Positions 5,977 through 61,809 of a DNA stretch of 64,000 nt are shown piece by piece (within the stretch, counting starts at the first letter, position 1; each line of letters starts with the position of its first letter). The stretch covers positions 992,001 to 1,056,000 of the forward strand of contig NC_009486.1 in assembly GCF_000016785.1 (NCBI RefSeq), in the 5' to 3' direction. The notes beneath the pieces are model-generated. The model ran no database searches and was not told where the DNA came from. It was given only the letters and a program-made list of their open reading frames with translations. The position numbers were made by a program, and so were the translations under genes. Source of the stretch: Thermotoga petrophila RKU-1 (lineage in GTDB: Bacteria; Thermotogota; Thermotogae; Thermotogales; Thermotogaceae).

Positions 5977-6039
5977 CCTTAGTGAAACATTTTGTGAATT
6001 TTCTGACAGTAAACTCTTTGTAATCCAAAGGAGGTGTCT

Positions 6040-7221
6040 ATGGTGAAGAGACTGCTCGTTTTAATGCTTGTTGTGGTTTCTGCCCTTGTGTTAGCACAAA
6101 CAAAGCTCACCATCTGGTGTTCCGAAAAGCAGGTTGACATCCTCCAGAAACTCGGGGAAGAATTCAAGGCAAAGTACGGAATCCCTGTTGAAGTTCAGTA
6201 CGTTGATTTTGGAAGCATCAAATCCAAATTCCTGACGGCGGCTCCACAGGGACAGGGTGCAGACATCATTGTTGGAGCGCACGACTGGGTAGGAGAACTC
6301 GCCGTCAACGGTTTGATCGAACCCATTCCCAACTTCTCTGATCTGAAGAATTTCTATGACACGGCTCTCAAAGCTTTCTCTTACGGTGGAAAACTCTACG
6401 GAGTCCCGTACGCCATGGAAGCGGTTGCTCTCATCTACAACAAGGACTACGTTGATTCTGTTCCTAAGACCATGGACGAGCTCATAGAAAAAGCAAAACA
6501 GATAGATGAGGAATACGGAGGAGAAGTCAGAGGTTTCATCTACGATGTCGCCAACTTCTACTTCTCTGCGCCGTTCATTCTGGGTTACGGAGGATACGTC
6601 TTCAAGGAAACACCTCAGGGACTCGACGTGACAGACATTGGACTCGCGAACGAAGGAGCAATCAAAGGTGCGAAACTCATAAAGAGAATGATCGATGAAG
6701 GTGTTCTCACCCCGGGTGACAACTACGGAACGATGGATTCCATGTTCAAAGAAGGTCTCGCGGCTATGATCATCAACGGACCTTGGGCTATAAAATCTTA
6801 CAAAGACGCGGGTATAAACTACGGAGTTGCTCCCATTCCTGAGCTCGAACCGGGTGTTCCTGCCAAACCATTCGTTGGTGTTCAGGGATTCATGATCAAC
6901 GCCAAGTCTCCAAACAAAGTGATCGCCATGGAATTTCTCACGAACTTCATTGCGAGAAAAGAGACCATGTACAAGATATACCTCGCAGATCCAAGACTTC
7001 CTGCAAGAAAAGATGTCCTCGAACTCGTCAAAGACAATCCTGACGTTGTTGCGTTTACCCAGAGTGCTTCCATGGGAACACCGATGCCAAACGTGCCGGA
7101 AATGGCTCCTGTCTGGTCTGCCATGGGAGACGCTCTCAGCATCATTATCAACGGACAGGCCAGTGTCGAAGATGCTCTCAAAGAGGCTGTGGAAAAAATC
7201 AAGGCACAGATAGAAAAATAA
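6040..7221 (+). CDS. malE: Maltose/maltodextrin ABC transporter, substrate-binding protein
   Basis: The ATG at 6040 lies five bases after AAAGGAGG; an in-frame GTG at 6034 falls inside the ribosome site and is rejected. The 393-residue product has a signal peptide (MVKRLLVLMLVVVSALVLA) without a lipobox Cys, so it should be a free periplasmic protein. The mature part starts TKLTIWC and carries extracellular solute-binding family 1 features such as AMEAVALIYNKDYV and INGPWAI. It delivers maltodextrins to MalFG. It corresponds to MalE2 of T. maritima by its neighbours. A hairpin after the gene (7247-7270) may favour MalE over the permeases. Confidence 0.95.
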   Translation: MVKRLLVLMLVVVSALVLAQTKLTIWCSEKQVDILQKLGEEFKAKYGIPVEVQYVDFGSIKSKFLTAAPQGQGADIIVGAHDWVGELAVNGLIEPIPNFSDLKNFYDTALKAFSYGGKLYGVPYAMEAVALIYNKDYVDSVPKTMDELIEKAKQIDEEYGGEVRGFIYDVANFYFSAPFILGYGGYVFKETPQGLDVTDIGLANEGAIKGAKLIKRMIDEGVLTPGDNYGTMDSMFKEGLAAMIINGPWAIKSYKDAGINYGVAPIPELEPGVPAKPFVGVQGFMINAKSPNKVIAMEFLTNFIARKETMYKIYLADPRLPARKDVLELVKDNPDVVAFTQSASMGTPMPNVPEMAPVWSAMGDALSIIINGQASVEDALKEAVEKIKAQIEK

Positions 7222-7297: not shown

Positions 7298-9031
7298 GTG
7301 AAAGGGCTTCTCAAAATCTTTCTGATATTGTTTCTCGCTGTATTCAACTCAGGAATGGTATGGGCAGGAATTTTCCTGCTTCAAAATTCTTATTATGAAC
7401 TTGGAATCGTTCTTCTCACGCTTCTCGTACTCATAGATTACTTCATTTTCAATCCGAAGGCTTACCCTTACAGATACACCATTCCCGCTTTGATATTACT
7501 TTTTGTGCTCGTTCTCTATCCTATATATTTCACTGTGAAGGTTGCGTTCACCAATTATGGAACAGGACACCTCATGACGAAACAAGAGGCCATCGAGAGA
7601 ATTCTTTTCGACCCAAATTACACTTATGTTCCAGAGAGCGCTGAACCTGTTGAATACATGGTCTTCTCCGTGTTCGATGGTCTGAATCCTACCGAGGATT
7701 TTGTTGTTCTCTTCGAGAAAGATGGGAACATCTACATCGCGGAGCGCCCCGTTGTCGCAAAGAGGAGTGGGAAAGAAGTCCTTTTGAGAGAGTCAACTCT
7801 TTTTCCCGTGAAGGATGGAACCGCCGAAGTGAATGGAAAGGTTTATGAAATAGTCCCCTGGCCCGCTTCCATAAAAGAGGTGAACGCCGTCTATTCAGAC
7901 GGTAAAATTTACAAACCGCTTTACTCACCTGAAGAGGTTTCCCTGAAGAGGTACGAACCTTTCTTCAAGGTAAATGTGGTTCAGAAGTATCTCAACAGGG
8001 CGGAGTTTTGGCTCGAGGATCAAAGTTACATGTTCAGAATAGGTGAAAATGGGGAATGGAACTTTTATCCAGTGAAGAGGATTTACTCTCTGTCTTTCGA
8101 AGAATCCCTCGAAAACGGAAGGATAACAACGAAACTTGTGGTGAAAAACAATCTCACTGGAAGGCATCTCGTTGAGAGAGAAGGTGCTTTTTACGATTAC
8201 GATGAAAATGGAAGAGAATTTTTCGTGATTGGATACATGGAATACATTGGTTTCAAGAACTTCTCCAGGATATTCACCGATCCGAAGATCGCTGGTCCTT
8301 TTTTCAAGGTTTTCACCTGGACGTTCACCTGGGCTGCTCTCAGTGTTCTTTTCACGTTCGCGATAGGTCTTTCCCTCGCTCTTGTTCTGAACGATAAAAC
8401 ACTGAAGGGAAAGAACGTGTACAGGACGTTACTCATTATTCCATGGGCTGTGCCAGCTTTCATTTCCGTTCTCGTCTGGAGAAACGGAATGTTCAACGAG
8501 ACTTATGGAATTCTCAACCGATTTGTTCTTCCGTTCTTGGGATTGGATCCGGTGAAGTGGTTCAACGATCCGTTCTGGGCGAAGGTTGCCGTTCTCACCG
8601 TCAACACGTGGCTGGGATTTCCGTACATGATGGCCGTCTCACTCGGAGCTTTGCAGAGCATTCCAGAGGAGCTCTACGAAGCCGCTGCGATCGATGGAGC
8701 TGGAAAATGGAGGAGATTCTGGACCATCACGTTTCCGCTTCTGATGACCACTGTGGCTCCTCTGTTGGTCGGAAGTTTTGCTTTCAACTTCAACAACTTT
8801 GTGAACATATACCTGCTCACCGGTGGAGGTCCCGCGATGCCCGGAACCACGACCCCTGTTGGTCACACCGACATTTTGATCTCATACGTTTACAAGCTCG
8901 CTTTTGAGGGAGGAAGGGGACAGGACTTCGGTTTTGCCAGCGCCATATCCATCATTATATTCTTCCTCGTTGGTGGAATCAGCTTCGTGAACTTCAAACT
9001 CTCTGGTGCGTTTGAAGAGGTGAGTGAATGA
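7298..9031 (+). CDS. malF: Maltose/maltodextrin ABC transporter permease MalF
   Basis: The GTG at 7298 is preceded by GGGAGG. The 577-residue product has N-terminal membrane segments, a large extracytoplasmic region (roughly residues 85-330, matching the P2-type domain of MalF), and a C-terminal six-helix permease core. The EAA loop EELYEAAAIDGAGKWRRF contacts the ATPase. It is longer than the 514-residue E. coli MalF. It ends in a four-base ATGA overlap with malG. No malK is present here, so the ATPase must be encoded elsewhere. Confidence 0.94.
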   Translation: MKGLLKIFLILFLAVFNSGMVWAGIFLLQNSYYELGIVLLTLLVLIDYFIFNPKAYPYRYTIPALILLFVLVLYPIYFTVKVAFTNYGTGHLMTKQEAIERILFDPNYTYVPESAEPVEYMVFSVFDGLNPTEDFVVLFEKDGNIYIAERPVVAKRSGKEVLLRESTLFPVKDGTAEVNGKVYEIVPWPASIKEVNAVYSDGKIYKPLYSPEEVSLKRYEPFFKVNVVQKYLNRAEFWLEDQSYMFRIGENGEWNFYPVKRIYSLSFEESLENGRITTKLVVKNNLTGRHLVEREGAFYDYDENGREFFVIGYMEYIGFKNFSRIFTDPKIAGPFFKVFTWTFTWAALSVLFTFAIGLSLALVLNDKTLKGKNVYRTLLIIPWAVPAFISVLVWRNGMFNETYGILNRFVLPFLGLDPVKWFNDPFWAKVAVLTVNTWLGFPYMMAVSLGALQSIPEELYEAAAIDGAGKWRRFWTITFPLLMTTVAPLLVGSFAFNFNNFVNIYLLTGGGPAMPGTTTPVGHTDILISYVYKLAFEGGRGQDFGFASAISIIIFFLVGGISFVNFKLSGAFEEVSE

Positions 9032-11529
9032 TGGTGAGAAAAAAGAATAGATGGCTCACGCATGTTCTTCTAACACTTCTTGTTGTTGTGGTTCTCTTCC
9101 CCATCGTTTGGGTTGTTTCTACCTCTTTCAGGAGGGATGAGGCCGCTTTCTCCCCGAAGCTCTTCTCATCCCGGCTCACCATTCAGCACTACAAGGATCT
9201 GGTGGCGCCTGAGAAGAATCTTCCCGTCCTCATACAGGAGATGCAGAGCCTTGTTTCCAGAGTGAAACCTTTTGACAATGTTTCTAGAGAGAAAGCGGAC
9301 CGTCTCGTCGAAGATCGAATTAGAAGATTTGAAAATTACCTCGCCGAAACGAAGAAACTTTTGGAAGATGTCAATGCGAGAAATTCGAAAATAGAAGAGG
9401 CTCTTTCTCAAAAGTTCTCCGATGTTTTGTCTTACACAAAAGATGTTCTGGAAGAGGCAAAGAAATTGACTCAGGAGCAGATGGATAAAACCCCATTGCC
9501 CGATTCACAGAGGATCGCTGTTGCACTCTATGAAAGATTGAAAGGCAAAAGCTTTAGAAGTGCTGAATTTCAGGCTTTGAAGGACGTGATCGAGAAAGTA
9601 GTGGGTTACAGCGTTGAGAATCAGGACACTCTGAACGATGCTCTTTCTGAACTTGGACTGGTTTACGAGAAAGAGGTAGGAACGTTCATGAGAGAGATCG
9701 AAAAACTCAATGGTGAAATTGAAACCCTTCAGAGGGAAATAGCCACCCTCAAGAAACAGAAGGAAACCCTTGAAAAAGAAATCTTGGAAAAACAAAAAGT
9801 ACTCGAGGTTTTGAAGCCTGACATCGATTCCGTGAGCGAAGTTCTCGTCAAACTCAAAGATATGGTGCACAGTGTCAGAAACAGTAAAGTGGAAACTGCT
9901 TTCCCTTATGAAGACTCAAAATTGAAATCTTCACTCGAAAAACTCCTGTCCGAACTCAACACTCTCTACAACAAAATCTCTGCTTTTTCAGATCTTTCGG
10001 ATCTCTCAGAAAAGATCTTTGCCATGAAGAGTTCTTTAGAAGAGATAAACAATGTGGTAAGCGAAGATGGTGACATTTCCAAGAAAGCCCTCTATGGAAG
10101 CTTTGTTCAATCCTTTGAAGAAACGGTTCCTATTGTTGAAGGAATCGTAGAGAAAGTGAGCGACGGAATTGACGATTTCGTTCAAAAGATAAAGGATTTG
10201 AAGAATATAGAAAACGAATTCATAGTACTCGAAGCAAAACTCGATGGCCTAGAGAAAAGCTTGAACAATGTGAGATCCTCCCTCTCTGAGAAAGAGAAAG
10301 AAATTTCTTCGGCGAAGATGTATCTGGATCTCAAGATCTTCAACCATCAGATCCAGAGCAGAATAGATTCCCTTGAAGATATAGAATCGTTTAATAACGC
10401 TGCACAAATGAAACTTCTTTCGATATATAGAACCCTCAGGGACTTTGTGAGCGGTTATGTATCAGAACACGGGGGAGACGATTTCATTGGAAAGATAAGA
10501 AAGCTTGCAACGAAACTTTCCTGGATAGAAGACTACAGAGATCTGAACAGACGGGTGGAAACGGGTTACAAAAACGCTCTGAAAATCGTTGAAAACGCAC
10601 AGAATATCCTCGATGACTTCAAAGAAAGTTATTCAAATCTTCTTGATCTTTCCTTCAAAGGACTTTACATCTCTTCTGAGCATCTTGAAATGCTGTACGA
10701 CCTCGTGAAGATGAACTTCGTTCAGGAAGTTCTCACGAACACAGCGGTGGCTTCGAGAAAGGCAGGAACTCTGATGGACACCATTCCTTTGAAGGAATTG
10801 AAGTCCGATCTCAAAAAGATCGATGGAGACCTCTACAGACTCGCGCAGATATGGGAGCAGAAGACGAAGCATTACTTCCTCAGATGGGTCATGAACTCGG
10901 TGATCGTCGCGGGCCTTGTTTCACTCATCACCACGGCTGTTTGTGCCTTGGCTGCATATCCGTTCAGCAGAATGAGATTCTGGGGAAGGCAGTACGGAAT
11001 CATGGCTCTCCTTCTCATTCAGATGTTCCCGGCCATCATGTACATGGTTGCGATATACGGTCTTTTGAAGCTCATCGGTCAGTTCCTTCCGTTCCTGGGA
11101 CTGGATTCCCTCGGAGGATTGATATTTGCCTACCTTGGTAACATAGCTTACAACATGTACCTCATAAAGGGATTCTACGACACCATTCCTTCGTCTCTAG
11201 AAGAGGCTGCTATGATCGACGGTGCAACCAGATTCCAGACCTTCTACAAGATAGTCGTTCCACTCGCTCTTCCGATCCTCACGGTCATAGTGATACTCAC
11301 CTTCATCGGGACGTTCAACGAGTTCGTCCTTGCAAGGATCATTCTTCAGGACGTGAAAAACTACACTTACGCTCTCGGCCTCTGGACGTTCTCAACGGGT
11401 GCTTATGAAACAGAGTGGGGCCTTTTCACGGCTGCCGCTCTCCTCGGTATGACACCGATGGTGATACTCTTCCTGTCCCTCCAGAAGTACATAGTGGGTG
11501 GACTCACGAAAGGATCGGTGAAAGGATGA
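9028..11529 (+). CDS. malG: MalG permease with a ~555-residue coiled-coil insertion
   Basis: The start ATG overlaps the malF stop (ATGA). Of 833 residues, only about 280 match a normal MalG. Helix 1 (about residues 6-34) and the segment [15 protein letters not shown] are followed by an insertion of roughly residues 58-613 before [15 protein letters not shown], where MalG homology resumes; the EAA loop [15 protein letters not shown] and the end [10 protein letters not shown] are canonical. The insertion is rich in Glu, Lys, Leu and Ser with heptad-like stretches ([20 protein letters not shown]), so it is a long coiled coil on the periplasmic side. It stays in frame and shares the codon style of the flanks, so it is not an assembly artefact. 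Its role is discussed in the findings. Confidence 0.93.
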
Positions 11530-14607: not shown

Positions 14608-15200
14608 ATGAGTTCTCTTAAAAAAAAAAGAACTTTTCTGGAAGATAACAATAGCTCTTATCGTTGCATTTGTTGTGATATGTGTTCTGAGTATCTTTCA
14701 GCTTTACTTTTCCGGAATGAAAACTGCCCGCGATTTCATAAGAAACGTGAACAATACCGTGACGTCCTTCATAAACGGATATTTCAGAAAATTCTATGTT
14801 GTTGATGTTTTGAGCCGCATTCCTGAAGTACGATATGCACCTTATCTGACCGATGAGGAAAGACGAAAAGTGTTGGAAATCTACAGAATTTTCCAGGAGG
14901 CAGACAGAGATATATACTATCTGTACTCGGGATACGAGAATGGACTTCTTCTGATCAACGATTACGAACCCGCAGAAGGATACGATCCAAGAGTAAGACC
15001 CTGGTACAGAGCCGCCCTCGAATCCCGACCTAAACCCACCGGTGGGATTCCCTACAGGGAGTTCAAAACAAAAGAGCTTTTGTTTTCCGTGAGCAAGGTG
15101 ATCACGGACGACGAGGGAAACGTGACCGGTGTGATATCTGTTGAAACACTCCTGGAGAGACTTTTGAGTAATTTTCCTCATTCTTTTGATAACCATGAAA
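14608..15200 (+). pseudogene. 5' fragment of a Cache-domain membrane HD-GYP protein, disrupted
   Basis: The ATG at 14608 has GGGGGAAAAG upstream. After MSSL, a run of ten A residues shifts the frame. With nine or twelve, the frame would read into KELFWKITIALIVAFVVICVL, a transmembrane segment, and on through a Cache-type sensor domain with the signature YDPRVRPWYRAALE. The intact relative at 18614-20290 has the same layout (one helix, then YDPRKRPWYKAA). Coding similarity ends near GVISVETLLERLL (about 15175). After that the IS element begins, and the second helix, linker and first half of the HD-GYP domain are missing. It is clearly inactive as a regulator in this form. Confidence 0.8.
14620..14629 (+). 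repeat. Homopolymer A10 causing a frameshift
   Basis: Ten consecutive A residues directly follow ATG AGT TCT CTT. They put the start codon out of frame with the transmembrane/Cache coding sequence by one base. This could be a fixed mutation, a slippage site, or a sequencing error. Confidence 0.8.
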
Positions 15201-15226
15201 CTGTGACAGAACCCCAACCACGCAAG

Positions 15227-15248
15227 CTATTCCCCTTCAGGGGGATAG
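15227..15248 (+). repeat. Left-end subterminal hairpin of the IS
   Basis: CTATTCCCC (15227-15235) and GGGGGATAG (15240-15248) pair over nine positions with one T-G wobble and a TTCA loop. The core (TCCCC-loop-GGGG) resembles the right-end hairpin at 16896-16920. Such hairpins are the single-strand recognition sites of Y1 transposases. Confidence 0.75.
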
Positions 15249-15253
15249 GTTTG

Positions 15254-15282
15254 TTGTGGTGTTAATTATCTTATGATATAAT
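15254..15282 (+). promoter_or_regulatory. Probable tnpA promoter
   Basis: A perfect TATAAT (15277-15282) follows a weak -35 TTGTGG (15254-15259) with a 17-base spacer inside the IS left end. Confidence 0.45.
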
Positions 15283-15299
15283 TGAATGGGGTGATAGGT

Positions 15300-15689
15300 A
15301 TGCATATCAAGAAGACAAGGTGGAGTCATTATAATCTGAACTATCATTTTGCGTGGATACCTAAATACCGCAGAAAAATCCTGGTCGGCTCCATAGCTGA
15401 AGAACTTGAACGAATACTCCGCAACACAGCAAAACAACACGGAATAGAAATACTGGCCCTCTCTATTCAGCCTGATCATGTTCATTTGTTTGTATCGGCG
15501 CCTCCGAGATTTTCACCGGCTGAGATAGCAAACCTATTCAAGGGTGTTTCAGCGAGGAAACTGCTGGAGAAATTTCCAGAGCTTAGAACCAAAGAGGGCC
15601 TTTGGGCTCGAAGTTACTACGTTGGAACAGCCGGTAATGTTTCTGAAGAAACTATCAGGAGGTACATCGAGGAATGTCAAGACGTGTGA
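15300..15689 (+). CDS. tnpA: IS200/IS605 family transposase TnpA (Y1 HUH)
   Basis: The ATG at 15300 follows GGGGTGAT; an upstream in-frame TTG lies in the -10 box. The 129-residue protein has the REP/Y1 fold motifs: the HUH pair in QPDHVHLFVSAPP, and the catalytic Tyr in the GLWARSYYVGTAG segment. Length and motifs are intact, so it may be active. It would cut and rejoin single-stranded DNA at the IS ends. Its last 16 bases overlap tnpB. Confidence 0.93.
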   Translation: MHIKKTRWSHYNLNYHFAWIPKYRRKILVGSIAEELERILRNTAKQHGIEILALSIQPDHVHLFVSAPPRFSPAEIANLFKGVSARKLLEKFPELRTKEGLWARSYYVGTAGNVSEETIRRYIEECQDV

Positions 15690-16882
15690 TACGAACCTAC
15701 AAACTCGCTGTACCAGGACATTTGAATCAAATATGCGAAGAACTCAACCGCACAGCAGCAAGAATCTACAACAAAACGATGTCTCTTGTGCGAAAGATAC
15801 ACCAAAAGAAAGGCTTCTGGCTGTCCTGGCCTGCCGCAGACAAATACATCCTCCGCTGGGCAGAAAACATCAAAATCCACGTCCATTCAAAGCAGGCATT
15901 TGTTCAGCTCTACTTTCAAGCCCTCAAAGGGTACTTCAAAGCAGCCAAAAAGAATCAAGATGCAAAACCTCCCCACAAGAAAAAACGCTATCTGCCGTTC
16001 ATATGGAAAGAAAGCGCTGTAAAACTTCTGCCAGACGGTACCCTGAGATTGTCTTTGGGCAAAGAACGAGAACCATTTGTTGTACAAACACCTCTCAAAC
16101 CTCCCCTTCGCATCAAACAGGCAAGACTTGTCTTTGAAGATGGATACTATCTCCACCTTGCGATAGAGGTGGAGATTGAAGAGAAGAATGCTGGCTCTGG
16201 TGTTATGGCGGCCGACCTTGGAGTGCTCCGTCCCATCACGTGCTTTGATGGAAAAGAAGTCATCAGCTACCACGGAGGAGTCCTCAGCAGCACTCTTCGC
16301 TATCGAAACAAACGCCTTGCAAGTTTTCAGTCTGCCATAGCAGAGTGCAAGAAGGGATCAAGAAGGTACAACAAGCTTGTTAGTGCAAAGAAAAGAGCCC
16401 TGAGACGGCTCAGAAACCAGATCAACGACATCATGCACAAGATCACAAGCAGTTTCATCGGACTGTGCCTCAGAAAGCAAATCAGAACCATCGTGATAGG
16501 AGACGTCACAGGGATCAGAGAAAGAGCAGACTACAGCGACAACGCGAACCAGAAGATCCACCAGTGGCAGTTCAGAAAACTCATCGAGATGATAAGGTAC
16601 AAAGCAGAGCAGTTCGGAATCGAAGTGAAACTCATCTCAGAAGCGAATACAAGCAAGACGTGTCCTAACTGTGGTGCAAAGAACAATCCGAACGGAAGAA
16701 GATACCACTGCGAAGCCTGTGGTTTTGAGTATCACAGGGACGGAGTTGGAGCAATCAACATCTGGAAAAGGTATCCTGGCACAGGCCAGGTAGTAGCGGG
16801 CTTGGCCCCCGTCAGAGGTGTGAGGTTTCATCCACACCTCTGTGGCCATGGAGCATCTTTGGCTCCATGGAAGGTGGCCTGA
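15674..16882 (+). CDS. tnpB: RNA-guided nuclease TnpB of the IS605 element
   Basis: The 402-residue frame is complete. An N-terminal helix-turn-helix/WED-like part (MSRRVIRTYKLAV) leads to a RuvC-like nuclease: first Asp in AADLGV, second acidic position in VIGDVTGIRE, and a zinc ribbon CPNCGAK...HCEACGF followed by the third Asp in HRDGVGAINIW. The second RuvC motif has GD where many TnpBs have ED. After the zinc ribbon, the last ~35 codons look dictated by RNA hairpins. TnpB cuts empty donor sites using an omega RNA, helping the element persist. Confidence 0.92.
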   Translation: MSRRVIRTYKLAVPGHLNQICEELNRTAARIYNKTMSLVRKIHQKKGFWLSWPAADKYILRWAENIKIHVHSKQAFVQLYFQALKGYFKAAKKNQDAKPPHKKKRYLPFIWKESAVKLLPDGTLRLSLGKEREPFVVQTPLKPPLRIKQARLVFEDGYYLHLAIEVEIEEKNAGSGVMAADLGVLRPITCFDGKEVISYHGGVLSSTLRYRNKRLASFQSAIAECKKGSRRYNKLVSAKKRALRRLRNQINDIMHKITSSFIGLCLRKQIRTIVIGDVTGIRERADYSDNANQKIHQWQFRKLIEMIRYKAEQFGIEVKLISEANTSKTCPNCGAKNNPNGRRYHCEACGFEYHRDGVGAINIWKRYPGTGQVVAGLAPVRGVRFHPHLCGHGASLAPWKVA

Positions 16883-16928
16883 GAGCCACCAAAAGTCCCA
16901 TCCCCTTTAGGGGATTGGGAGGAGGTCA
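16775..16928 (+). ncRNA. Candidate omega RNA (reRNA) at the tnpB 3' end and right end
   Basis: Five consecutive perfect or near-perfect stems lie on the coding strand: CCTGGC/GCCAGG (16775-16790), AGAGGTGTG/CACACCTCT (16814-16841), CCATGGAGC/GCTCCATGG (16846-16870), GGTGGC/GCCACC (16873-16890, spanning the tnpB stop), and the bulged right-end hairpin (16896-16920). In IS605 elements the guide RNA scaffold ends at the right end and its guide is the flanking DNA. Here the flank encodes the IGKIAVPE segment of HD-GYP. Boundaries are inferred; no transcript data are available. Confidence 0.65.
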
Positions 16929-17349
16929 AATAGGAAAGATCGCTGTACCAGAACACATCTTGAACAAACCCGGAAAGCTCACAGATGAAGAATTCGAGGA
17001 AATCAAAAAACACTCCATCGTTGGTGCAGACATATTGAGGGAATATCCGGAGCTGTCCTTCGCTGTCCCTGTGGTTCTATACCATCACGAAAGGATGGAT
17101 GGTTCTGGATATCCTTTCGGTTTGAAAGATGGAGAGATACCGCTCCTTGCCAGGATTTTAGCGGTAGCGGATGTGTTCGACGCCCTTACCAGCGACAGGC
17201 CCTACAGAAAAGCTATGAAGCCAGAAGACGCTGTAGCTCTCATGAAGAAAATGCCTCTCGATCAAGAGGTCGTGGGAATCCTTGAAAAATATCTTTCGGA
17301 GTTTTTCAGGCTGAAACCTCAAGTTTCAAACCCGCGTAGCAATCCATGA
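16926..17349 (+). pseudogene. 3' fragment of an HD-GYP domain gene
   Basis: HD-GYP coding resumes just after the IS with IGKIAVPEHILNKPGKLTDEE, missing the His-Asp of HDIGK, and continues through YHHERMDGSGYPFGL and DVFDALTSDRPYRKA to a stop at 17347. The frame is open back into the IS right end (to 16867), but those residues are IS sequence. Because about 200 codons are missing relative to the 5' fragment, the two halves may derive from a deletion or from two different HD-GYP genes. Its 3' end overlaps the convergent hydrolase gene by 44 bases. Confidence 0.8.
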
Positions 17350-59823: not shown

Positions 59824-60601
59824 GGAAAAGATCGTGATGGTCACCGCGTACGATGCTCCCAGCGCCAGAATCGCGAGAGATGCCGGCATAGATGTCATTC
59901 TCGTTGGAGACTCCCTTGGAAACAACGTTCTCGGGTACGAAAACACGATTCCCGTAACTATGGAAGAAATGCTGATACACGTGGCAGCCGTGAAAAGGGG
60001 AGCCCCAGACGCTTTCATAGTAGCAGACATGCCTTTCCTTTCCTACCAGACTTCCGTGGAAAAAGCTGTGGAGAACGCTGGGAAGTTCTTGAAGGTCGGT
60101 GCGAATGCCGTGAAAATAGAGGGTGGAGAGGAATTCGGTGAGCTCGTTCAAAAACTGGTCGAAAGCGGTATTCCGGTGATGGGCCACATAGGCCTCACAC
60201 CTCAGTTCGTGAACCGTTTCGGTGGTTACAGAGTCCAAGGAAAGACGGAAAAAAACAGAGAATACCTCTTGAGGAGCGCCAGGGAGCTTGAAAAGAGGGG
60301 GGCTTTTGCTATCGTTCTGGAGCTCGTTGTTGAGGAAGTCGCTAAGGAGATCACCGAAAGCGTCTCCATTCCAACCATTGGCATCGGTTCAGGCCGTTTC
60401 TGTGATGGTCAGGTTCTCGTCTGGCACGACCTTCTCGGTCTGAATCCGGACTTCGCACCTCGCTTTTCCAAGAAATACGCAAACCTGTACGAAGTCATAT
60501 TGAAAGCTTTGCAAGAGTTCAGAAGAGAGGTAAAAGAGGGTCTGTTCCCCACCGAAGAACATTCATTCACAGATAAATCCAAAGGAGGTGTGTCTTCATG
60601 A
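59789..60601 (+). CDS. panB: 3-methyl-2-oxobutanoate hydroxymethyltransferase
   Basis: The 270-residue TIM barrel has metal-binding VGDSLGN, the KIEGG segment, GHIGLTPQ, and the catalytic Glu in VLELV. GTG start after GGGAGGTGGC. It makes ketopantoate for pantothenate. Together with coaBC elsewhere in the window it serves CoA synthesis. The stop overlaps the Omp-alpha start. Confidence 0.96.
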   Translation: MNVEKLKKMKGKEKIVMVTAYDAPSARIARDAGIDVILVGDSLGNNVLGYENTIPVTMEEMLIHVAAVKRGAPDAFIVADMPFLSYQTSVEKAVENAGKFLKVGANAVKIEGGEEFGELVQKLVESGIPVMGHIGLTPQFVNRFGGYRVQGKTEKNREYLLRSARELEKRGAFAIVLELVVEEVAKEITESVSIPTIGIGSGRFCDGQVLVWHDLLGLNPDFAPRFSKKYANLYEVILKALQEFRREVKEGLFPTEEHSFTDKSKGGVSS

Positions 60602-61809
60602 AGAAGCTTCTGGTGTTCGTTCTGATGCTTGGAGCATTCGTCGGAATTTCACAGCAGTTCAAAGACGTTCCCGTCAACCACTGGGCCTACGAAGCGGTAA
60701 TGGAGATGTCAAAACTCGGTGTTCTCACTGGAATGCCGGATGGAACGTTCCAGGGTAACTCCTACCTCACCAGGTATCAGGCAGCGGTGGCGTTCTACAG
60801 ACTCTACAACATACTCAAACAACCTTCTGCGGACGTTTCCGGACTGATAAACAAGGTCTCTACTCTCGAGGATCTCGTCAGCACAGCTTTGATGAAGGTT
60901 CAGAACCTATCTGACAATTTTGGGGGAGTAACGTCCGATCTTGAAACTCTCAAGAACGATGTGGCGAACTTGAAAGCCACTCTCGTTGACCTCAAAAACC
61001 TCAGAGTCGAAGTCATGAGTCAGGTTCAGAGTCAGTCAGATGAACTCCAGAGCCTGGATGCTAAAGTGAACGAAGCGCTTTCGAAAATCGCCGCTCTCGA
61101 ATCCAAACTTTCGGGGGACTTCGTGAACAAAGACTACGTCGACAGCAAGATCGCCCAGACCGTCTCGAAACTGAGCGATCTCGAAGGAAGGCTCTCCGCC
61201 GTTGAGACGAAAACGGCGAACCTTGAGGCACTAGTGAGAAATTCCGAGGCTTCTCTCAAAGATTACGTGGAAAAAACTCTCAAATCCTACACAGATACTC
61301 TCGATCAGAAACTCTCCGAACTCTCTGCCAGTGTCGAGAAAAACAACACCGCTCTGTCTGGAGAGATAGGAAACCTCAAGGTGCTCGTCTCCAAACTCCA
61401 GAGCGACCTTGAAACTCAGCAGAAGACGGCAAGAGCTCTCGATGCTCGTGTGAGCGTTCTTGAAGGTCAGATCACGACCGTGAACAGCCGTGTTGAGAGT
61501 CTGGAAAAGAGAGTTTCTCAGGTGGAGTCGGCAGTTGACAAGGTGAACTCACTCGAAAGAAGCATGGGAGCAGTCACAGCAAGAGTCACCAAAGTCGAAG
61601 AAGAAGTTAAGAATCTCAATCAGAGTAACGCAGAACTCTCCCAGAAAGTTGACGAGGTCGTCTCTTCGAAACCATGGATGGAAGATGTAAACAGCGTGAG
61701 CGCCACCCTCAGCAAGAAGATCTCCGATGTTCAGACCATGGCCCTTGCGGGTGTCGCCATCGGAATCGTCGGTGTGATAATCGGTTTTGTGATGGGAAGT
61801 GGCAAATGA
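60598..61809 (+). CDS. Omp-alpha: SLH-domain coiled-coil spacer of the toga
   Basis: The 403-residue protein has a signal peptide (MKKLLVFVLMLGAFVGIS), an SLH domain (FKDVPVNHWAYEAVMEMSKLGVLTG to residue ~78), about 295 residues of uninterrupted heptad coiled coil, and a C-terminal membrane helix (ALAGVAIGIVGVIIGFVMG). This is the layout of Omp-alpha of T. maritima, which bridges peptidoglycan and the outer sheath. The ribosome site AAAGGAGGTG is strong. A strong terminator follows. Confidence 0.95.
   Translation: MKKLLVFVLMLGAFVGISQQFKDVPVNHWAYEAVMEMSKLGVLTGMPDGTFQGNSYLTRYQAAVAFYRLYNILKQPSADVSGLINKVSTLEDLVSTALMKVQNLSDNFGGVTSDLETLKNDVANLKATLVDLKNLRVEVMSQVQSQSDELQSLDAKVNEALSKIAALESKLSGDFVNKDYVDSKIAQTVSKLSDLEGRLSAVETKTANLEALVRNSEASLKDYVEKTLKSYTDTLDQKLSELSASVEKNNTALSGEIGNLKVLVSKLQSDLETQQKTARALDARVSVLEGQITTVNSRVESLEKRVSQVESAVDKVNSLERSMGAVTARVTKVEEEVKNLNQSNAELSQKVDEVVSSKPWMEDVNSVSATLSKKISDVQTMALAGVAIGIVGVIIGFVMGSGK

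Follow-up and report, generated by a model that had tools for sequence, protein, structure and literature searches.

In E. coli, the binding protein MalE is contacted by the periplasmic loop of MalF. The MalG subunit of the same importer, MalFGK2 (2r6g_G, a type I ATP-binding cassette (ABC) importer of the CUT1 family), has a loop of about 25 residues between the pieces, on either side of its first and second transmembrane helices (TM1 and TM2), that align with the protein described here. A 2008 study of mal operons found that the Thermotogales proteins MalG1 and MalG2 exceed the usual size: ~500 hydrophilic residues separate TM1 from TM2, a region described as absent from every other MalG and without a known function; for the T. 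maritima mal2 operon, transport of maltose and trehalose was reported (PMC2246101). Here we analyze a malG gene of this kind in 64,000 nucleotides of Thermotoga petrophila RKU-1 (NC_009486.1, positions 992,001 to 1,056,000 of the forward strand; hereafter the window, in which positions are given). The encoded protein shares with E. coli MalG the permease core (residues 617-833), TM1 and the malE-malF-malG gene order, but about 560 residues, predicted to form a rod, stand in place of the short loop. Structure prediction and coevolution together make it very probable that this insert is a single antiparallel hairpin rod, and the reach estimated from the predicted helices would end well short of the toga.

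The split MalG and the predicted shape of its insert

The malG open reading frame (9028-11529, + strand; 833 codons with an ATG start) shares four bases with the end of malF (7298-9031). MalG homology occupies residues ~5-56 and 616-833, leaving ~560 residues in between; the insert length used below is 559 residues. PRK10998 (MalG) is the best NCBIfam model for the protein (E=4e-71, best stretch 616-833), and its score of 239.9 bits lies below its cut-off of 261, presumably as a result of the insert interrupting the match at the N-terminus. E. coli MalG aligns in two pieces, 5-56 and 618-833 (the first of which, on its own, scores a weak 12.9 bits), with about 45% identity in the core, and the permease core family PF00528 (BPD_transp_1) scores 54 bits against a cut-off of 26. 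These alignments confirm the original prediction, made from the letters of the window, that MalG is split by a long insert between TM1 and TM2. The permease core with its MalG-specific similarity, and the operon with a binding protein and MalF in the order malE-malF-malG, place the protein in CUT1/MalG; the hydrophilic insert places it in the Thermotogales long-MalG group, the same proteins as the MalG1 and MalG2 of PMC2246101, where no structure was given and the region was called unique to them. A Pfam scan of MalG found no family above cut-off within the insert, and sub-cut-off matches there to Thoc5, TMF and others were set aside as coiled-coil noise.

AlphaFold2 (AF2) was run on the window MalG and 38 homologues, and the shape was read from the list of helices, not from coordinates. 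The insert was predicted with a predicted local distance difference test score (pLDDT) mostly of 85-95, and the helix breaks mirror each other about i+j~640, with a tip at residues 319-320. The hairpin proper comprises residues about 87-543 and the membrane-proximal base residues 57-86 and 544-612.

Coevolution was analyzed in 100 aligned long MalGs (effective number of sequences, Neff, about 62-71). Antidiagonals near i+j 627-639 stood out, most strongly with a reduced alphabet, and the full alphabet gave an additional second band near 538. When the arms were taken separately over all sequences, the base arm peaked at 629-633 and the distal arm at 633; restricting the set to inserts of 500-580 residues left the distal peak at 633, and the base arm did not peak there on mutual information. 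In a test that permuted heptad blocks, antiparallel pairing scored z 3.97 in the distal arm and 3.47 in the base arm (p=0.0005 each) for a register band, 627-643, that was picked after the AF2 breaks and a first scan had been seen. The parallel alternative gave z 0.48 (distal) and -1.05 (base) in the same test, on which a parallel arrangement was rejected. When helix pairs were scanned blind, a mid-rod pair emerged at i+j 631 (p 0.03), a distal pair at 634 (p 0.01) and, less clearly, a base pair at 636 (p 0.09). AF2 and coevolution are not fully independent, since both are fed by the same sequences. The same antiparallel register in both arms gives good support to a hairpin that leaves the membrane and returns to it, as had been proposed. 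A compact helical bundle near the membrane, set against that proposal from the start, is not what the two methods suggest: the mirrored helices and the single antidiagonal argue against it as the whole fold, as judged without model coordinates. Whole-model Foldseek matches beyond permeases (MukB, SMC) had root-mean-square deviations over 30 Angstrom and reflect long helices only.

The periodicity of I, L, M, V and F residues along the insert is strongest at 104.5 degrees per residue, where its power is 0.83; shuffled sequences reached 0.49 at most, so that a helical or heptad pattern is real and well above chance. Strong canonical 7/2 periodicity is limited to residues about 200-280 and 365-420, the remainder being helical but irregular, and this rules out the uniform coiled coil of ~555 residues originally envisaged, of which the helical pattern survives. 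One straight arm of 275 residues each way does not survive either, as the hairpin is interrupted by breaks and a mid-rod element and the base lies outside it. The insert thus has the mirrored helices and antiparallel covariation of an antiparallel coiled-coil hairpin, with 7/2 periodicity in part of its length. Conservation is highest in the base (1.97-2.32 bits; the N-side, 57-86, at 2.3 and the C-side at about 2) and falls to 1.2-1.5 bits in shaft and tip, the region flanking the tip (286-355) being the least conserved at 1.21 bits. W609 is invariant. The features of the locus are as follows.

6034..7221, + strand: MalE substrate-binding protein (PF13416/PF01547; non-lipidated signal peptide)
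7298..9031, + strand: MalF partner permease, 577 residues, intact (PRK10999 MalF, 391.8 bits against a cut-off of 392)
9049..9144, + strand: MalG TM helix 1, residues 8-39 (AF2 helix; aligned to E. coli MalG 10-60)
9178..9258, + strand: N-side base of the insert, residues 51-77, conserved (AF2 short helices 51-59, 65-77)
9286..9981, + strand: predicted outgoing arm, residues 87-318 (AF2 helices 87-128, 130-154, 160-171, 179-192, 199-261, 263-285, 297-318; coevolution with the returning arm, i+j about 630-636)
9982..9987, + strand: predicted hairpin tip, residues 319-320 (AF2 loop; near half of the coevolution antidiagonal sum)
9988..10656, + strand: predicted returning arm, residues 321-543 (AF2 helices 321-346, 356-449, 457-481, 485-496, 499-543)
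10657..10863, + strand: C-side base, residues 544-612, conserved, contains W609/K612 (AF2 helices 551-585, 589-609)
10876..11526, + strand: MalG permease core, TM2 to the C-terminus, residues 617-833 (PF00528, PRK10998, 2r6g_G)

The intact malF2 of this genome differs from the T. maritima copy, which was reported with an authentic frameshift (PMC2246101). The genome encodes a paralogue of the long MalG elsewhere (G000:C1:1546322-1548787), with 44% identity across 831 residues, its full length. The malE-malF-malG order recurs in most homologous loci with readable neighbours, and MalE is soluble at the long-MalG loci with a readable malE.

Reach, distribution and history

Reach was calculated by adding up the residues in helix between base and tip (67 in 87-154, 26 in 160-192, 86 in 199-285 and 22 in 297-318) and multiplying by 0.148 nm. 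It amounts to about 30 nm if the helices are collinear and to about 25 nm if 155-198/450-498 form a bulge or elbow, so that on the predicted model the rod is estimated to reach 25-32 nm at most, a small membrane offset included. The earlier figure of 41 nm had assumed every residue in one straight arm; the reach is shorter because about 100 residues lie in the base and some more in loops or the mid-rod bulge. Most total inserts measure 474-661 residues, and the returning arm keeps 201-226 aligned residues in all clades tabulated, the alignment placing the extra residues of longer inserts mostly in the outgoing arm (155-285). A Mesotoga homologue of 923 residues, modelled separately, has the same base helices and the same long returning helix (461-550); its ~90 extra residues, with additional helices 182-222, 229-241 and 250-272 in the outgoing arm, apparently form a side module. 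Because the extra length falls mostly in the outgoing arm and the returning arm is nearly constant, insert length does not equal reach, and in alignment and models the reach looks roughly constant across clades.

Among 103 Thermotogota genomes, 99 match at 1e-40 and four do not. A long MalG frame is present in 96 by our own count (a few are broken by contig ends); of the remaining matching genomes, two have a short MalG only and one is cut at a contig edge. Insert lengths group tightly by family, at about 508-534 (Fervidobacteriaceae 520-534), 543-559 (Thermotogaceae, Pseudothermotoga), 583-602, 645-652 and 657-661 residues, family names being assigned by inference. One Thermotogota outlier (G004, L049:848-2137), with an insert of about 363 residues, may be a natural short form of the rod. 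The insert is also found in six of seven Dictyoglomota genomes, two of them closed, at 473-474 residues, and in one of 50 Atribacterota genomes, where the copy represents either transfer or misbinning. A tree of the core without the insert, a quick one of 218 columns under a simple model with several weak forks, unites all long MalGs in one clade (Shimodaira-Hasegawa-like approximate likelihood ratio test, SH-aLRT, 99), with the Dictyoglomota and Atribacterota sequences nested among Thermotogales, near Thermotoga. This single clade, with Dictyoglomota inside Thermotogales, indicates that the insert was gained once in Thermotogota and later transferred to Dictyoglomota.

Long permease frames in Acidobacteria, Anaerolineales and Egibacteraceae proved to be stop-to-stop overhangs, not inserts. 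Plasmids yielded 979 matching records, none of which covers 80% of the query, and among the 60 matches listed there is little beyond the permease core; a plasmid-borne long MalG was rejected. In Dictyoglomus and one Atribacterota genome, a GH53 endo-galactanase-like gene follows the long malEFG (L073:8358-9860, L223:7335-9185), and, as judged from gene content, the substrates of the importer there may be fragments of galactan and not maltose. A different sugar permease of the T. petrophila genome (701 residues; L005:1495-3600, - strand; G000:C1 about 299448) has its own TM1-TM2 insert of >400 residues; it shows no similarity to the MalG insert, the core alone matching, and homology of the two inserts was rejected. 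A Mesoaciditogaceae-like genome (L215) encodes a similarly laid out relative of 816 residues.

Elsewhere in the window, a small Y1-type transposase-like open reading frame (15282-15689) and a TnpB-like one (15674-16882), both read from sequence only, lie between the apparent halves of a sensor / HD-GYP gene (14675-15265 and 16867-17349; region 14675-17349). This arrangement suggests that an IS200/IS605-type insertion broke that gene.

A possible mechanical role and its rivals

We propose that this MalG would be an ordinary CUT1 importer subunit with a length-constrained mast built into its TM1-TM2 periplasmic loop. The mast would be a two-helix antiparallel hairpin (about 87-543, tip about 319-320) on a conserved base (57-86 and 544-612), standing upright to about 25-32 nm from the membrane, well short of the toga, beside the docking site of soluble MalE and probably with its base touching the MalE/MalF side. 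Its job would be mechanical: it could fix the position of the transporter with respect to the wall or a crowded periplasm, and/or keep a column clear for MalE. Specific binding to an outer-membrane protein would not be its role. Taken whole, this reading seems to us evenly poised between right and wrong, and the spacer or positioning role by itself is advanced as a tentative possibility.

Several observations weigh against it. Global AF2 confidence is moderate (predicted template modelling score, pTM, 0.62 for the Thermotoga MalG and 0.58 for the Mesotoga homologue), the predicted rod could be shorter or angled if it bends at residues 155-198/450-498, and the blind scan also returned two helix pairs that do not fit a hairpin (T1-D, T1-G). 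Furthermore, eight of the 11 MalG-like permease frames in this genome have 268-310 residues and no mast, and most of the insert-bearing Dictyoglomota retain a short MalG alongside the long one. With sister sugar permeases lacking a mast in the same cell, the envelope does not require one.

The rod might instead act as an antenna for MalE, mainly its base and lower shaft binding the protein, raising its local concentration and offsetting dilution in a very large periplasm. The base is conserved and placed where MalE should dock, a soluble MalE is encoded next door in the loci examined, and the toga balloons at the poles (PMC3387000). However, the shaft surface is not conserved, MalF retains a large periplasmic loop of its own (PMC2246101), and other binding-protein importers of Thermotoga have no mast, so that we consider this role unlikely.

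Distinctly unlikely is a rod that forms oligomers, in which the hairpins of neighbouring transporters would bundle and cluster the importers. The hairpins of MmpL5 have been modelled as a six-helix barrel (PMC12501195) and provide a precedent, but a type I importer complex has one MalG, the content of about 32% I, L, M, V and F in the insert suits a two-helix core, and nothing pointed to a further partner.

Contact across the envelope was suggested in the original prediction. In a fuller version of that reading the mast would reach the toga and dock a porin or other outer-membrane protein, and sugar would pass from porin to MalE to MalFGK. The window does encode the predicted Omp-alpha (60598-61809, 403 residues, with an SLH domain), Omp-alpha-type spacers and the insert co-occur in Thermotogota and Dictyoglomota, and in the genus Thermotoga a barrel gene is divergent to malEFG. 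Against this, the toga separation credited to Omp-alpha is ~50 nm (PMC3387000), compared with a reach of 25-32 nm, and the tip is the least conserved part. A match of insert length to Omp-alpha is ruled out by a Spearman coefficient of -0.08 across 66 genomes (family medians 0.0), the Omp-alpha frames being taken stop-to-stop and as best hits only. The barrel, present in 33 of the 103 Thermotogota genomes against 96 with the long MalG, was rejected as a general partner. In Mesoaciditogaceae, with inserts of 657-661 residues, Omp-alpha was undetected at 1e-8, a sequence search that can miss such proteins. The Dictyoglomota, considered as possible bearers of the insert without a toga, give no clean refutation: those that carry it also encode an SLH / coiled-coil protein, in one case with an apparent barrel. 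In that D. thermophilum-like genome an SLH / long coiled-coil / apparent beta-barrel protein of 620 residues (L223:13432-15294), resembling connectors of the Omp-alpha or SlpA type, is encoded about 6 kb downstream of the long malG. Long MalG and wide, spacer-held envelopes are thus weakly correlated. The insert lacks other marks of a periplasm-spanning connector, with no SLH or outer-membrane anchor Pfam domain above cut-off and MalG TM helices at both ends. Given the short reach, the absence of scaling with Omp-alpha, a tip that varies and a barrel of limited distribution, there is, as far as sequence and models can tell, no support for the rod touching either the toga or the divergent porin. 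A bridge between cell body and toga at transporter sites, formed by the hairpin with MalE or a wall partner perhaps adding to its length, is improbable; if it existed, sugar import would be physically continuous across a periplasm of ~50 nm.

Largely neutral elongation kept by descent, with the base alone useful, agrees with the fast drift of shaft and tip and with the sister permeases that do without, but is very improbable, since the near-constant returning arm, the antiparallel covariation and retention in 96 of 103 genomes point to selection on the rod.

If the proposed length-constrained mast acts as a ruler, it provides a testable link between transporter architecture and the wide periplasm of Thermotogota. 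Its defined arms, base and tip make deletions, crosslinks and length swaps straightforward to design, and Dictyoglomus, with both long and short MalG, offers a natural comparison of mast and no mast in one cell.

Comparison with known systems

Type VII ABC transporters such as MacB have a helical periplasmic stalk between TM1 and TM2, in an ABC fold that differs from that of type I MalG. A comparable periplasmic rod is not known from any type I ABC importer. Mycobacterial MmpL5/MmpL4 (PMC12501195) also have an antiparallel coiled-coil hairpin in the periplasmic part of an inner-membrane transporter, but they are RND exporters with a 196-residue insert of ~13 nm, modelled as a trimeric tube, in an unrelated context. 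A literature search, mostly without subscription journals, found no paper on the structure of the MalG insert. Beyond PMC2246101, the present analysis adds the predicted hairpin shape and the presence of the insert across the phylum and in Dictyoglomota; its existence was already known, and the rod shape, the constant reach and the transfer to another phylum appear to be new. Omp-alpha and SlpA (PMC3387000, PMC9388160) likewise form long periplasmic coiled coils, in Thermotoga and other deep-branching diderms, but as parallel homo-oligomers fixed to the wall by SLH domains and outside any transporter, whereas the MalG rod would be an antiparallel hairpin built into an importer.

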